Below, one piece after another: positions 10,324 to 62,207 of a stretch of DNA of 64,000 bases. The DNA comes from Deferribacteraceae bacterium V6Fe1. Its GTDB lineage: Bacteria; Chrysiogenota; Deferribacteres; Deferribacterales; Deferrivibrionaceae. Location of the stretch: the NCBI GenBank assembly GCA_022813675.1, contig CP063375.1, forward strand, positions 124,001-188,000, given 5' to 3'. Below the pieces are notes generated by a model. That model saw only the letters and a program-made list of their open reading frames with translations. It was not told the origin of the DNA and searched no databases. The position numbers and the translations under genes were made by a program. Positions within the stretch are counted from its first letter, which is position 1; every line of letters begins with the position of its first letter.

Positions 10324-10351
10324 TTTACAAGAAATACTGTTTTACTATAAT
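10324..10351 (+). promoter_or_regulatory. sigma-70 promoter for the mini cytochrome c
   Basis: TTTACA (10324-10329), a 16-bp spacer and a perfect TATAAT (10346-10351). The predicted start near 10358 leaves about 16 nt to the ATG, with AGGAGGG in between. It overlaps an upstream in-frame ATG at 10350 and so rules that start out. Confidence 0.7.
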
Positions 10352-10373
10352 GAAAAAAAATCAGGAGGGTGGT

Positions 10374-10619
10374 ATGAAAAAAATAATTTCCTTATCTTTA
10401 CTATTGCTTGTCGCAAATATGATTTATGCTACTTCAGATGAAGAGCTTTTTTACACAAAATGTACGCAGTGCCATGGCGAAGGGATAATTTTAAACAAAA
10501 AGTATGATAAAAGCACATGGAAAAAAACAGTCAAAAAGATGAAGTCTTACGGAGCAAATATTTCCTCATCCGAATCTAAAAAGATAGTGGATTATCTCGT
10601 TAAAAATGCAGGAGAATGA
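10374..10619 (+). CDS. small monoheme c-type cytochrome, periplasmic
   Basis: 81 aa with a clear signal peptide (MKKIISLSLLLLVANMIYA) and one heme motif, CTQCH at residues 30-34. A Met in the segment WKKTVKKMKSYG is the likely distal ligand, as in small class-I cytochromes. It probably shuttles electrons in the periplasm. The start at 10374 follows AGGAGGGTGGT. Its TGA ends one base before the stop of the convergent histidine kinase gene, with no terminator between them. Confidence 0.88.
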   Translation: MKKIISLSLLLLVANMIYATSDEELFYTKCTQCHGEGIILNKKYDKSTWKKTVKKMKSYGANISSSESKKIVDYLVKNAGE

Positions 10620-31925: not shown

Positions 31926-32417
31926 TTATTCAGCACACCCCGTAAGTTCATATGGAACCATTTTAAATGTTCCAAGCGGATTAGTTACAGGAAAACCTGC
32001 CTCAATCCATCCTTTTATACCACCTTTAAGATTTACAACATTCTGATAACCCAACCTTTTTAATGTTTCTGCGGCCAATACCCCTCTACCGCCAACTTTA
32101 CAATAAGTAACAATGAGCTTATCAGTCGGGATATTCATCTTTGGTAGCATAAATTCGATCAAACCTCTGCTAATATTGTAATACTCTTTAGCCTCAATTT
32201 TTGCTGCAGGCACCTCTTCCTTTGTCCTAACATCGATAAGCACAAAATTTACCTTGCCTTTAATTAAGTCCATAAGCTCCTGAGGGGTTATCTCCTTAAC
32301 CATTTGCTTTGCAGCACTTACCATCGCTTTGCTGTTGTCAGCAACAGGGTTTGCCTCAGCAAATACGCTAAAGCTAAAAGCCATCAAACAAAATAATGCT
32401 AATAAAAATCTTCTCAT
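31926..32417 (-). CDS. periplasmic rhodanese-like protein
   Basis: 163 aa with a signal peptide (MRRFLLALFCLMAFSFSVFAEA). One rhodanese domain: VLIDVRTKEEVPAAKIEAKEY and active-site Cys106 in VTYCKVGGRG, with LKRLGYQNVVNLKGGIKGW. Such exported rhodaneses can carry polysulfide sulfur to periplasmic sulfur reductases. The start is the ATG after CAGGAGGTGG, which drops 18 upstream residues of a longer frame. An own terminator follows. A sulfur-respiration link is only suggestive. Confidence 0.92.
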   Translation of the reverse strand: MRRFLLALFCLMAFSFSVFAEANPVADNSKAMVSAAKQMVKEITPQELMDLIKGKVNFVLIDVRTKEEVPAAKIEAKEYYNISRGLIEFMLPKMNIPTDKLIVTYCKVGGRGVLAAETLKRLGYQNVVNLKGGIKGWIEAGFPVTNPLGTFKMVPYELTGCAE

Positions 32418-32527
32418 ATTCCACCTCCTGAAATATAATAAAATATACCACATAAAAAAAAATCTTGTCAACCTATCTGTTCATTTATTTACAAATTGTT
32501 AAAAATTATAAACATAATCTTTTAATT

Positions 32528-34007: not shown

Positions 34008-34037
34008 AAAAAAGGCCGGGAAACCCCGGCCTTTTTT
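34008..34037. terminator. bidirectional rho-independent terminator
   Basis: A perfect 13-bp stem: AAAAAAGGCCGGG (34008-34020) and CCCGGCCTTTTTT (34025-34037), loop AAAC. Followed by T on either strand, it can end both the porin transcript (minus) and any plus-strand read-through from the hotdog gene. Confidence 0.95.
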
Positions 34038-34054
34038 AGTATGTAAAAATTATA

Positions 34055-35767
34055 TTAGAATCTGTAAGTCATCTTAAGGTAAAATTGGTCAACCTTATCA
34101 ACTACAGGCATCAAAGTATTGAAAGCTGTAGCATCTTTAATCTTAACAGGCTCACCCATATAGTTACCGCTGTTAGTGTACTCGTAATCATAGTGGATGT
34201 AACCAAGTGTAGCAAAGAAGTTGTTACCAACGATCGGCTGATGATAGTATACCTCATACACATCACCGCGTGTAGCAAGCTTCTGTGCATCATAAGTAAG
34301 GATAAATGGCTGCCAGTATTTGGTACCATGGTTGTATTCTACACCAAGTTTACCGCCTAAGAATGGCAATTCTGGAGTCATAACACCAAGCCAGATAGAG
34401 TGACCTGTACCATCCATCATTTTATCCATGCCCATAAATTGATACATTGGGTTAGCTGACTGGTTGGTTGGGTCAGTTTTACTCATAGAATAAGCAGCAA
34501 ACCAGCTGAAGTCAAATGTATAACCTTGAGCTATAATTGAGTGAAGGTCTATATTACCAACCTCTGACATTGGCTCTACACGAGAAACAAATCCACCATA
34601 GTTAGGATTGATAGTATAATTATCATAAATTCCATCTAAATTTGTATCTGAACCTGATACATAGAATGGAAATACAGCAGTACCGATAAAGCCGTCAGTC
34701 AAACCGTAGCCGTGAGCCCAGTTGTAAATCACTTTGTAATCTTCGTTATCAAAAAGTTTAACGATAGCACCAAAGAAGTGAACATCATTTACATCTGCCT
34801 GAGCATTCATAGAGTTAAGTGTGCCGTAGCCACCTTCATAACCCTGACCGTAGCAAAACTTAACATTAAGCCCTGGTATACCGGTCAAGTCAGCAAGATC
34901 AAATCCTAATGAACCACCATCAAAGTTCATTTGAATGATTGTGCCGGCAGGTGAGCCACCAAGTACTGCATTTTCATGGTTTTCCATACCATAACCGTAA
35001 GCGGCAGGACGACGACCAAAAGAGAAATGCCAGTGAACATCCCCGATACTGTTTCTATATACGAAATAAGCTCTTTCTACTCTCAAAGAATCATCTGTAG
35101 GTACCTGAGCAGAGTTTGCATCAAGAGCCATACTCCCCATAGTGCCGTTAAAGAAATGGAAAGGTGTAGAGTCACCAAAAGTCTTAAACATTACCAAACG
35201 ACCGCTGAAAGAAAGGTTTTCGTTTACTTTTGAAGAAAGCCTTAAACGAAGTCTGTTAGTAAGCATAAAGTCGTTGTTTGTGTCGTATTTTTTAGGAGTA
35301 ACCATGCCAAAAAGCTTGCCAATCTTTTCAGCATCTGTTCCACTAAGAGTAGTACTCTCTACAGCATCAGGCACACCATTTGAATTAGAGTCAGTAGTCA
35401 AACCCACAAGTCCAAACATTGTAGGCAACTGAGAAGCTTCTGCAGGATATTTCGAAGCAAATGCACCATAATCAGAAACTGAAAAACCACTTCCATCCAT
35501 CCACAAAGACATAAAATCACTTGCCCAGTCAGGCAATGCCCTTACATTCTTATACTGAGTGCTGTCAAGTCTTGACATAAACTCAGCACTGATAGAAAGC
35601 TTGTCTGTAGCTGTGTGTCTTGTGTTTTTAGACACAAATTTGTTCATAGTGTCTACCTGAGTCTGAAGGTCAGCAATCTGTTTCCTGAGCTGATCAAGTT
35701 CAGAATCGGCAAAAGCGAAAGTTGATGCTAATAAAACCCCTAAAACGATAGATAAAAGTTTTTTCAT
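34055..35767 (-). CDS. outer-membrane porin-like protein, DUF3373-like
   Basis: 570 aa. A signal peptide (MKKLLSIVLGVLLASTFAFA) is followed by a short coiled coil (about 21-50: ELDQLRKQIADLQTQVDTM) and a long region of alternating aromatic and polar strands. The C-terminus ends LKMTYRF, a typical terminal Phe of beta-barrels. The coiled coil plus barrel is the DUF3373-like type, common in anaerobic metal- or sulfur-respiring bacteria; its channel function is not known. The ATG at 35767 follows GGAGG. Its promoter appears to overlap the preceding terminator. Confidence 0.88.
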   Translation of the reverse strand: MKKLLSIVLGVLLASTFAFADSELDQLRKQIADLQTQVDTMNKFVSKNTRHTATDKLSISAEFMSRLDSTQYKNVRALPDWASDFMSLWMDGSGFSVSDYGAFASKYPAEASQLPTMFGLVGLTTDSNSNGVPDAVESTTLSGTDAEKIGKLFGMVTPKKYDTNNDFMLTNRLRLRLSSKVNENLSFSGRLVMFKTFGDSTPFHFFNGTMGSMALDANSAQVPTDDSLRVERAYFVYRNSIGDVHWHFSFGRRPAAYGYGMENHENAVLGGSPAGTIIQMNFDGGSLGFDLADLTGIPGLNVKFCYGQGYEGGYGTLNSMNAQADVNDVHFFGAIVKLFDNEDYKVIYNWAHGYGLTDGFIGTAVFPFYVSGSDTNLDGIYDNYTINPNYGGFVSRVEPMSEVGNIDLHSIIAQGYTFDFSWFAAYSMSKTDPTNQSANPMYQFMGMDKMMDGTGHSIWLGVMTPELPFLGGKLGVEYNHGTKYWQPFILTYDAQKLATRGDVYEVYYHQPIVGNNFFATLGYIHYDYEYTNSGNYMGEPVKIKDATAFNTLMPVVDKVDQFYLKMTYRF

Positions 35768-35808: not shown

Positions 35809-35837
35809 GCTATAGTTTCTAAAACAAAGGGGGACAA
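35809..35837 (-). promoter_or_regulatory. promoter of the porin gene, -35 within a hairpin
   Basis: On the minus strand, TTGTCC (35837-35832), a 17-bp spacer and TATAGC (35814-35809). The -35 box lies in the loop and 3' arm of the terminator hairpin of the upstream cytochrome gene. Confidence 0.45.
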
Positions 35838-35845
35838 TCCCCCTT
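35820..35845 (-). terminator. rho-independent terminator after the CX3CH cytochrome
   Basis: On the minus strand, a stem of AAGGGGG / CCCCCTT (35845-35827) with a 5-nt loop, then TTTGTTTT. It is about 21 bp beyond the cytochrome stop codon at 35867. Confidence 0.88.
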
Positions 35846-35866: not shown

Positions 35867-36187
35867 CTAACCGCAAGTTTCTGGCTGGTCAGAGTCAAGT
35901 GCGTGGCTGTGAAGATATTCAAACATATCTTCTACGTCCTGATCGCTAAGACCTGCTTTAGCAGAGCACTCTTTAATCTTTGGAAGAGCTGCTTTCCACT
36001 GAGCCTGAGTCTTTGACACAGGGCTAAGTGCAGCTACACCTGCTTTTGAGCCGTCATGGCAAGCAAGACGACAGCTTTTTTTCCATACTCTCTTACCTTT
36101 TCTTGCATTACCAGCAGCGTAAGCTGAAGTAACTGCAAAAATTGCAATTGTCGCTAAAACCAAAGCCGTAAAAAGTTTCTTTTTCAT
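35867..36187 (-). CDS. small c-type cytochrome with a CX3CH heme motif
   Basis: 106 aa. A signal peptide (MKKKLFTALVLATIAIFAVTSAYA) leads to a mature chain with SCRLACHDGS at residues 38-47. The heme motif is Cys39-X3-Cys43-His44, one residue longer than CXXCH. The bases encode it directly, so it is not a reading error in the frame given. Two more Cys (74 and 105) are present. It would be exported and perhaps heme-bearing. It lies after torD and before the porin gene, each with its own terminator. Confidence 0.87.
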   Translation of the reverse strand: MKKKLFTALVLATIAIFAVTSAYAAGNARKGKRVWKKSCRLACHDGSKAGVAALSPVSKTQAQWKAALPKIKECSAKAGLSDQDVEDMFEYLHSHALDSDQPETCG

Positions 36188-36267: not shown

Positions 36268-36951
36268 CTATTCACTGAAAACCTCTTCGACGATTCCATC
36301 CAAATCGTTAATAAATTCCAATAAACCCAATGCCAACACTTTATAAAAATCAAGCTCGGCACTCTCGATAATTTTCTTACAAAATTTTTCACACATTGGC
36401 AATACCAAACCGTAAGCTACAAGAAAAAAACCTTTTGCCGCGCTAATCCCGTCAACATTAAGTCTGCCTATCATAATCGACATATATTCAAGCATTATAT
36501 GGATATTGTCTTCCAAATCTTTATAATCTTCTTTAAGCTCAAACCCTGTCTTTAGCATCAAATCTCTTAATTTTAAAAGATGGTCGCTAAACAGTAGCCC
36601 GTCATCACTAAGATACACAGATGCATACGGGCTGGCAGGCACTCCGTCTTTATTGGCCACAAAAAGTCTTACATACTCCACCTGCATATCATCAGCTTTT
36701 TCAACGTGGAGCGTTTTGCCTGCATAGGCCTCGAAAAAATCATCAAAATATTTTGCTGACTCTTTAAGTCTCGAGTAAACTTTCACATCTGGATATCTGA
36801 AGGCAAGGGATAAAAACATCAATGTATTGCTTAGATTAATTACCGCTGTCTCATCGTATGAATCAAAATTTATTACAACATCGTCCCAATCCCCTTTTAG
36901 TGCAATTTTTTTTACCTTTTCCAAATCAACCGGGACTTTAAACTCTGTCAT
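36268..36951 (-). CDS. TorD/DmsD-family chaperone for molybdoenzymes
   Basis: 227 aa helical protein. The TorD-type signature VEYVRLFVANKDGVPASPYASVYLSDDGLL is recognisable, with EYMSIMIGRLN later. These chaperones bind Tat signal peptides and insert molybdenum cofactor into respiratory oxidoreductases such as TMAO, DMSO or other reductases. No molybdoenzyme gene is in the window, so its client is elsewhere. It is 81 bp upstream of the CX3CH cytochrome gene, likely co-transcribed. Confidence 0.85.
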   Translation of the reverse strand: MTEFKVPVDLEKVKKIALKGDWDDVVINFDSYDETAVINLSNTLMFLSLAFRYPDVKVYSRLKESAKYFDDFFEAYAGKTLHVEKADDMQVEYVRLFVANKDGVPASPYASVYLSDDGLLFSDHLLKLRDLMLKTGFELKEDYKDLEDNIHIMLEYMSIMIGRLNVDGISAAKGFFLVAYGLVLPMCEKFCKKIIESAELDFYKVLALGLLEFINDLDGIVEEVFSE

Positions 36952-60281: not shown

Positions 60282-62207
60282 CTATTCCTTTTTAGATAAA
60301 TTTTCAAGCATCTTTTCTGCCAACTGTTGGTTATGAGGCAAGATAGCTTTAATTTTTTTCAGTTGTTCTGACGTTATTTTATCCTTATTAAACTTTAACC
60401 TCAAATCATGTATTTGGGCGTACAACATATTGTATTTATTTAACTGCTTCTCATACTTTTGGTCGTCAAATGGTATGGAAAAATCTATACCTTTAACGTT
60501 CCAAGCCTTGCCATCGTATACAAACGGTGCAAAATCGTCCGCATTTCTTCCTTTTACTGGTAGTATTTCACTAAAGTTAATATCACTGAACATCAAACCA
60601 TCTTTACCTGCTTTAATAAAATACGAACCATAAAAAGGTTTCTCAACATCAGTTTTCACATCATAAGCAAACCAACTTGTAGCAACCTGTTCGTGGCTTG
60701 CATGGCAACTGTTGCAACTCCTACCACTTCCTATAGCATGAGACATTTTGTCCATCTGAATCCAGGCCAGCATGTTATCGTTATTTTTTAAATTTTTAAA
60801 CATTCCGGTTAATATATACATATCATTTACTTCATCAGATTTTCTTTCAACAATAAACTCTTCTGGCTCACCGATTTCGGTTTTTCCTTTTACAACGGTC
60901 TTTTTAATCTCCCTAAGTTTTAGACCTGTTTTTTCCACATCACCTTTAATGTTCATAACTGCCATAGGGTAGGGTTTAACAGGGATCCACTTCCCAGTTG
61001 TCGGATGTTTAATCAAAGTTGGCATACTTCTGGTACCATAATATTCTTTATGTTTAGCAAAATAATTAAATTGGCCTTCCGACATTCCAGGACCCCAGAA
61101 AGTAAACTGGTACGCGCCAACCTCTTTTATGTGGCAAGATGTGCAATCGACATTTTTGTGATCATCACTTGCCTTAATAGCTTCTACAACTTCATTATGA
61201 CAGCTTGAACATGACTCTTTAGCATCATTTGACGCCAAATGCCCGTAGCTGTGATTTTTCATTTTGTGACAATCGATACAATTTATACCATTTTTAGAGT
61301 GAACGTCTGTTGGCAACTCATTATACGGAAATGCAAATTCTTCACGGATATAACCAGCGCCCCTTCTTCTATCCATAGGACCTGCATGGCATATTGTCCC
61401 TTTTCCACTTCCGTAACAGCTTAAATTTTCGACTTTTTTGGCAAACAAATGCCTAGCATTTGACTTTTTAAATCCTTCATAGTGACAATCGTTACAACTG
61501 GCATGACATTTATTACAACCTCTATCTTTCCCAGCATTCATTAGCTCTGTAAAATCTTTGGTACACTCATCCTTTATCTTCTTGTAGTTATCCCCCCACC
61601 AAACACCGCAGTTTTGAGGTCCTGGAGGATTGGCCGTCCAATTAGTAAACCCCCTTTGATACTTATTAAGTCCCATTCCAGACTTATTATAATCCACCAA
61701 TTCATCCTCATGGCATTTACCGCATGTTTCTTTTGCAATTTTAGGTGAATAGGCCATAGTTTTAGAATCGTGATCATGGTAGAAAAGTTGAATTATCTTT
61801 TTAATTCCATATTTTTCTTTAGCCTCTTCAGTAGGTTTCCTAATCAACAATTTCGTTCTGTCATCTCCTTTTGGCTGAATGGGGTCAAAGTTCGTAACTT
61901 CCCTGCTCACAGCTTCATATTTGTGATTTTTACCAACTGCCGCATAAAAAGGTCTTGGCATATCCTTGTGAGCTTCATCCTTATCCATTGTTTGATTGTT
62001 ACCTAGGTGACAATCCACACAAGTCGGAACACCTTCCATGTTAACTTCTTTGTCCACTTCAGTCGGGTCAAGATACATTTGAGGATATCCTAACTTTTCC
62101 AAAGCTTGCTTGTCAGAATGACATTTGACACAGCTGGAATCAGGGTCATACGCCATTACCATACTACAAGTAAAAATAAAAATAAAACAAAATAAAATCT
62201 TCTTCAT
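60282..62207 (-). CDS. secreted multiheme c-type cytochrome (nine CXXCH plus one CX8CH)
   Basis: 641 aa with a signal peptide ([19 protein letters not shown]). Nine CXXCH motifs start at residues 26, 63, 162, 231, 238, 310, 333, 355 and 498; two of them abut ([12 protein letters not shown]). In addition Cys264 and Cys273-His274 form CX8CH ([11 protein letters not shown]). Two more Cys (200 and 215) lack a His. The C-terminal third has no heme motif. The protein is periplasmic or extracellular and probably respiratory, but I cannot assign an enzyme family. The gene has its own sigma-54 promoter and GGAGG site. The family could be reductase, HAO-like or purely electron-carrying. Confidence 0.88.

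Follow-up and report, generated by a model that had tools for sequence, protein, structure and literature searches.

According to the usual view, heme lyases gauge the spacing of the CXXCH motif. A heme peptide with the longer spacing CXXXCH has been seen by mass spectrometry for MmcA of Methanosarcina acetivorans, as described in PMC11024163, and the Ccm machinery of this organism is reported to be without CcmD, CcmH and CcmI (PMC9084895). CX3CH motifs, one in each protein, are also reported from the sequences of ImcH and two CymA homologues (PMC6295460). A set of maturation proteins that combines a cysteine-type CcmE with the absence of CcmH has been named System I* (PMC3601427), and the active-site heme of TsdA is described as having a cysteine ligand by which the enzyme works (PMC4423706). 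In the open-access literature we found neither a paper on the cytochrome family studied here nor an electron carrier described for the DUF3373 outer-membrane protein or the PhsA-like gene clusters.

The gene under study lies in a window (the whole stretch of DNA that was analysed) of 64,000 nucleotides and encodes a protein of 106 amino acids. With a probability of roughly 0.66, we read it from comparative sequence evidence as a real CX3CH cytochrome c that would be matured by System I* and would take part in sulfur-linked electron transfer in the periplasm. For the window protein, we infer heme attachment, ligation, partner and substrate as follows: heme would be attached through Cys39 and Cys43 of the CX3CH motif with His44 as the proximal ligand, and the cytochrome may act together with the DUF3373 outer-membrane protein and with a PhsA-like molybdoenzyme served by TorD, passing electrons to or from sulfur compounds. 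The features of the locus are these:

35867..36187, minus strand: CX3CH monoheme cytochrome-like protein of 106 aa (ORF call, translation, Pfam)
36056..36073, minus strand: CRLACH heme-attachment motif, residues 39-44 (translation; conserved in relatives)
35966..35968, minus strand: Cys74, a possible distal heme ligand or half of a disulfide (putative role)
35873..35875, minus strand: Cys105, the penultimate residue (present in 74/74 rows)
36268..36951, minus strand: upstream neighbour, TorD/DmsD-like molybdoenzyme chaperone, PF02613 (Pfam; order conserved)
34055..35767, minus strand: downstream neighbour, predicted DUF3373 outer-membrane protein, PF11853 (Pfam; putative location)
35827..35845, minus strand: terminator-like stem-loop between the cytochrome and DUF3373 genes (consensus match only)
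34008..34037, minus strand: terminator-like stem-loop downstream of DUF3373, where the operon probably ends (consensus match only)

The cytochrome gene starts with an ATG codon that is preceded by an AAGGAGG ribosome-binding site. The translation agrees in full with what a sequence-only reading of this DNA, which named no strand, had reported: an open reading frame from 35867 to 36187 for 106 residues with the order Cys39-Arg-Leu-Ala-Cys43-His44, two more cysteines at positions 74 and 105, and no CXXCH. The protein had also been called exported, and its predicted export is based on a putative signal peptide, read by eye from a hydrophobic N-terminus and a cleavage site between SAYA and AG; the mature part begins AGNARKGKRVWKKSCRLACHDGSK. 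In a scan of all window ORFs of at least 60 aa, this was the sole ORF with CX3CH, and CXXCH was found in two others: a small cytochrome of 89 aa with one such motif (10350-10619, plus strand) and an exported multiheme cytochrome of 641 aa with nine (60282-62207, minus strand). The 106-aa protein matches the cytochrome c profiles PF13442 (29.6 bits at a cut-off of 27, E 8.8e-7) and PF00034 (23.3 bits at a cut-off of 21.3, E 1.6e-4). At the level of predicted structure, the AlphaFold2 models of the window protein (pLDDT 78, pTM 0.65) and of its CXXCH relative L041 (pLDDT 74, pTM 0.62) weakly match mainly class I cytochromes c: Foldseek gave no match at E 0.001 and E values above 0.1 for both models, the top PDB matches being mostly cytochromes c and the best E for the window protein being 0.34, and the best VIA-align scores were weak as well (Z 6.0 over 75 residues at 3.3 A with cytochrome c6 for the window protein, Z 6.2 over 69 residues at 2.8 A with c546/556 for L041).

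The conservation of the motif among homologues had been proposed as a check on the heme site, and it holds for the close relatives. A search of 59 related genomes at a threshold of E 1e-3 gave matches in 26 of them, with two matches in the own genome, G000. The 16 best matches (L001-L016, with L001 being the window gene itself) all keep CX3CH, in the forms CRLACH, CRTVCH, CRTACH, CRTTCH, CREACH and CRLTCH. The motif is present as CYKECH in the paralogue L028 of the own genome, in paralogues of the same order (e.g. CHKTCH, CYQMCH and CYKQCH), and in two Calditrichota genomes (CRVACH and CRLACH). Altogether, 32 CX3CH proteins were read, i.e. 27 within an alignment of 74 rows and five more paralogues (L177-L181), and all of them share Cys39, Cys43 and His44. 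In nine close pairs, dN/dS was 0.02-0.28, and these pairs have synonymous changes inside the motif codons together with purifying selection. The conservation in 16/16 close orthologues, the low dN/dS and the shared triad indicate that the gene is not decayed, and a pseudogene was rejected given the purifying selection. Of the two outcomes that the sequence-only reading had left side by side, the unusual but real heme site is thus the favoured one, supported by the conserved CX3CH branch and the two profile matches, whereas a decayed or non-heme protein is disfavoured for the window gene and fits some motif-less relatives.

CXXCH at the same place in close homologues would have spoken against this view; it is absent from the close homologues and present in distant ones, in Desulfobacterota loci and also in G048 of the same phylum. 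In the set of 74 rows, CX3CH occurs in 27, CXXCH in 31 and neither motif in 16, so that within this family of monoheme cytochromes CX3CH is a variant specific to one lineage. When the motif columns were removed, a tree of 54 rows still had one branch that set all CX3CH rows apart (99/90 support, recovered in 100% of 200 bootstraps), and the same split was weaker in the tree of all 74 rows (73/67 support, 72% of the bootstraps), in which the CXXCH protein L055 is labelled motif-less. One residue that would have been inserted (or deleted) once between the CX3CH and CXXCH branches explains the split, the root of the tree being arbitrary. The window protein thus looks like an inherited, functional-looking CX3CH variant of the CXXCH monoheme family. 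These counts refer to the 74 rows. Outside them are L031-L035 and L050, whose genomes are already represented by other rows; likewise L142, L143 and L145, from the genomes of L041, L046 and L045; L159, a near copy of L158; L067, an unrelated multiheme protein; the remote relatives L165-L171 (E 1e-13 to 1e-17), of which L166-L171 have CXXCH; the CX3CH paralogues L177-L181; L183, which is a copy without the motif in G048; L186 with CXXCH; and L182, L184 and L185. A wider family search gave weaker matches in most of 85 genomes, outside the rows that were read.

The rows with neither motif bear on the question of whether the protein binds heme at all. Loss of the YHTKCADG-like kind is found in eight rows from the Deferribacterales, which belong to two genera of a single family, and loss of the VYKSCYKRG-like kind in seven Desulfobacterota rows; L026 is motif-less likewise. 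Motif-less members with the C-terminal cysteine arm are L017-L024, L026, L053, L054, L155-L157, L162, L163 and L183. All 16 motif-less rows retain Cys43, Cys105 and the C-terminal segment, as would be expected of a non-heme protein that is a cytochrome by ancestry only and uses the cysteines of CX3CH for a disulfide or for binding something other than heme. However, Cys39 is gone in 16/16 and His44 in 13/16 of these same rows, whereas Cys39, Cys43 and His44 are kept together in every CX3CH protein read; moreover, a histidine beside the second cysteine has no role in a disulfide, and the CX3CH proteins still score as cytochrome c. We therefore regard a non-heme window protein as improbable. Even more improbable, in our view, is an attachment of heme by a single cysteine (Cys43, with His44) as in AXXCH-type sites, which would leave Cys39 free or paired. 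Such an attachment would suit the non-standard spacing, and in a side branch of the Desulfobacterota a tyrosine stands for the first cysteine, with the Cys-His remaining (Tyr-x-x-Cys-His) in L155, L156 and L162. Yet Cys39 is present in 27/27 CX3CH rows, and MmcA provides a precedent for heme at CXXXCH, whether by one thioether or by two (PMC11024163).

In the reading that we prefer, a heme cytochrome, a distal ligand has to be found as well. No conserved methionine is present among the rows of the family. Counted from the tryptophan of the TQxQW block, 9 of the 27 CX3CH rows have a cysteine at W+10, the remaining 18, which are the long-linker relatives, have a histidine at W+15, and the two never occur together in one row. 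This region is presumably where class I cytochromes place their distal methionine, and the alignment suggests that the distal ligand is probably Cys74 in the window protein and histidine in the long-linker relatives. Conservation of the second cysteine pair, which had been named as a further check, thus holds for Cys105, found in all 74 rows, and fails for Cys74, in place of which most CX3CH rows have the histidine at a nearby position. Cys105 is nevertheless not invariant in remote relatives, since four of the six that were read (L166, L167, L170 and L171) lack a C-terminal cysteine. A cysteine in the region of Cys74 is kept in 16/16 motif-less rows, which suggests that Cys74 would not be a heme ligand only; the retention of this cysteine and of Cys105 in these rows indicates that the cysteines have some role without heme.

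How could heme be attached to the longer motif? The ccm operon of the own genome encodes CcmE, CcmF, CcmA, CcmB and CcmC (CcmA and CcmB named by eye). CcmE contains the stretch LLAKCPSKY and is of the cysteine type, and PF01578 matches at three places in the genome, including one CcmF and one CcmC. A search with PF03918 gave no match to CcmH in G000 at E 0.001, and a profile search found no ResB there. With a cysteine-type CcmE, CcmF and CcmC and no detectable CcmH, G000 has the composition of System I*. It is likely that System I* attaches the heme, i.e. that the ordinary Ccm of the host, with its cysteine-type CcmE and without detectable CcmH, would do so with no dedicated lyase. For G000, we rejected the idea that CX3CH is handled by a System II lyase or by one of its own: there is no ResB, the three PF01578 matches include one CcmF and one CcmC, and nothing lyase-like adjoins the gene. 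The adapted lyase of the sequence-only reading thus survives in a refined form: a dedicated enzyme was not seen, and CcmF, CcmC and the cysteine-type CcmE of System I* are present.

The distribution of CcmE is in agreement with this idea. CPSKY was found in 30/30 CcmE loci read, out of 51 genomes with a CcmE match. A cysteine-type CcmE is present in 19/19 CX3CH hosts as compared to 4/32 CXXCH hosts (Fisher's exact p 2e-10); given the kinship of the rows and the single origin of CX3CH, this is an association that amounts to about one evolutionary event rather than to 19 independent ones. CcmE was detected in five of the 32 CXXCH hosts, four times as the cysteine type and once as the histidine type, and ResB, which was searched in the first CXXCH set, is present in 16 of the first 17. 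The four CXXCH hosts with a cysteine-type CcmE imply that System I* does not force CX3CH. Among the 17 Deferribacterales CX3CH hosts, to which the count of CcmH refers (G059 and G078 are outside it), four have CcmH and seven a full-length ResB. The CcmH genes of four Deferribacterales genomes (L103-L105) each have another CcmF-like gene close by, and this second gene may encode a separate lyase. It is tempting to speculate that this family amounts to a test, run by nature, of the specificity of heme lyases, in which System I* accepts a longer heme motif and CX3CH is confined to its hosts, and that the truly conserved part is the C-terminal Cys105 arm rather than the heme: the family would then consist of periplasmic sulfur-handling proteins whose heme, with His/Cys ligation here and His/His ligation in the long-linker relatives, was respaced or lost. 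We consider this far-reaching combination to be quite improbable.

The proposed link to sulfur is derived from the gene neighbourhood. Among the main-copy loci L001-L016, DUF3373 adjoins the cytochrome gene downstream in 16/16 and TorD upstream in 15/16. A promoter scan at the locus found sites no more frequently than in shuffled sequences. In the window, the trio of TorD, cytochrome and DUF3373 stands alone: no match to PhsA, TusA, YedE or the octaheme protein was obtained anywhere in the 64,000 nucleotides, and the sulfur link is thus borrowed from relatives. A Rhodanese-domain protein with a signal-like N-terminus is encoded about 3.4 kb from the cytochrome (31926-32471, minus strand). In some genera, the trio is followed by genes for a PhsA-like molybdoenzyme and for iron-sulfur and NrfD-like proteins and is preceded by a sulfide-quinone-reductase-III-like gene with a diheme protein, with NCBIfam scores below the cut-off. 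The Desulfobacterota neighbourhoods contain DUF3373, YedE-like, TusA and DsrE-like genes (DsrE by eye) as well as PhsA-like genes or octaheme genes of the tetrathionate-reductase family, the latter above the cut-off. One or more matches to genes of these kinds (DUF3373, PhsA-like, octaheme, TusA or YedE) are present in each of the 20 loci L036-L055. The motif-less Deferribacterales genes L080, L081 and L086 lie outside the TorD-DUF3373 pair, still within a few kilobases. In L084 and L085, also from Deferribacterales, a CX3CH paralogue has as neighbours two molybdoenzyme operons and a gene resembling those for tungstate-binding proteins (WtpA family, with a score below the cut-off).

The isolated trio would also suit a generic small periplasmic electron carrier that serves a TorD-assisted molybdoenzyme and has no special link to sulfur, and so would the PhsA-type matches in the relatives, which reach 507 and 524 bits and thus stay below the curated thiosulfate-reductase cut-off of 694. 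Against such a carrier, the neighbours in the relatives are repeatedly sulfur genes (PhsA-like, the octaheme genes above their cut-off, TusA and YedE), and this points to the respiration of sulfur compounds. A generic carrier thus seems rather unlikely to us, although it deserves to be taken seriously. The CX3CH and CXXCH branches of this small family, with the matching differences in the maturation systems of their hosts, would be a clean pair of substrates to study how CcmF, with or without CcmH, reads the spacing. Moreover, a monoheme cytochrome is now placed beside the DUF3373 outer-membrane protein and the PhsA-like gene clusters.

The closest known systems include the CXXCH members of the family itself in the Desulfobacterota and the sister class (L041, L158, L025): they have the K-G-K, TQxQW and DSxxPxxC blocks in common with the window protein, and many have a DUF3373 neighbour; their heme motif is one residue shorter, and most of their hosts are without CcmE. 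With class I cytochromes c, the window protein shares PF13442 and PF00034 matches above the curated cut-offs, the order Cys...Cys-His and the weak fold matches, whereas it has CX3CH rather than CXXCH and no conserved distal methionine; having CRLACH without CXXCH, it is called a variant rather than a standard member. SoxA and TsdA resemble it in the cysteine at the candidate distal position and in the sulfur genes in the neighbourhood of its relatives, and they differ in that the window protein is a CX3CH monoheme protein with putative cysteine ligation; TsdA is among the fold matches, weakly only. The Desulfobacterota neighbourhoods resemble the YTD cluster as described in PMC9751629 and PMC8780430, and the window, in which neither YedE nor TusA has a match, does not have the combination of yedE, tusA and dsrE beside the gene. 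The short protein of sulfur disproportionators mentioned in PMC8780430 was rejected as a counterpart, being FlhB-like and not of this cytochrome family, and ExtI/ExtJ of Geobacter, as reported in PMC5877670, were considered as a possible pair of a porin and a small protein. The ImcH and CymA homologues have CX3CH in common with the window protein and are, unlike this monoheme protein, multiheme membrane proteins. Geobacter uses System II, and CX3CH in the ImcH homologues thus argues against a general rule that ties CX3CH to System I*. Finally, MmcA, a heptaheme protein likened here by its description, resembles the predicted site of the window protein both in the CXXXCH motif and in a Ccm machinery without CcmH.
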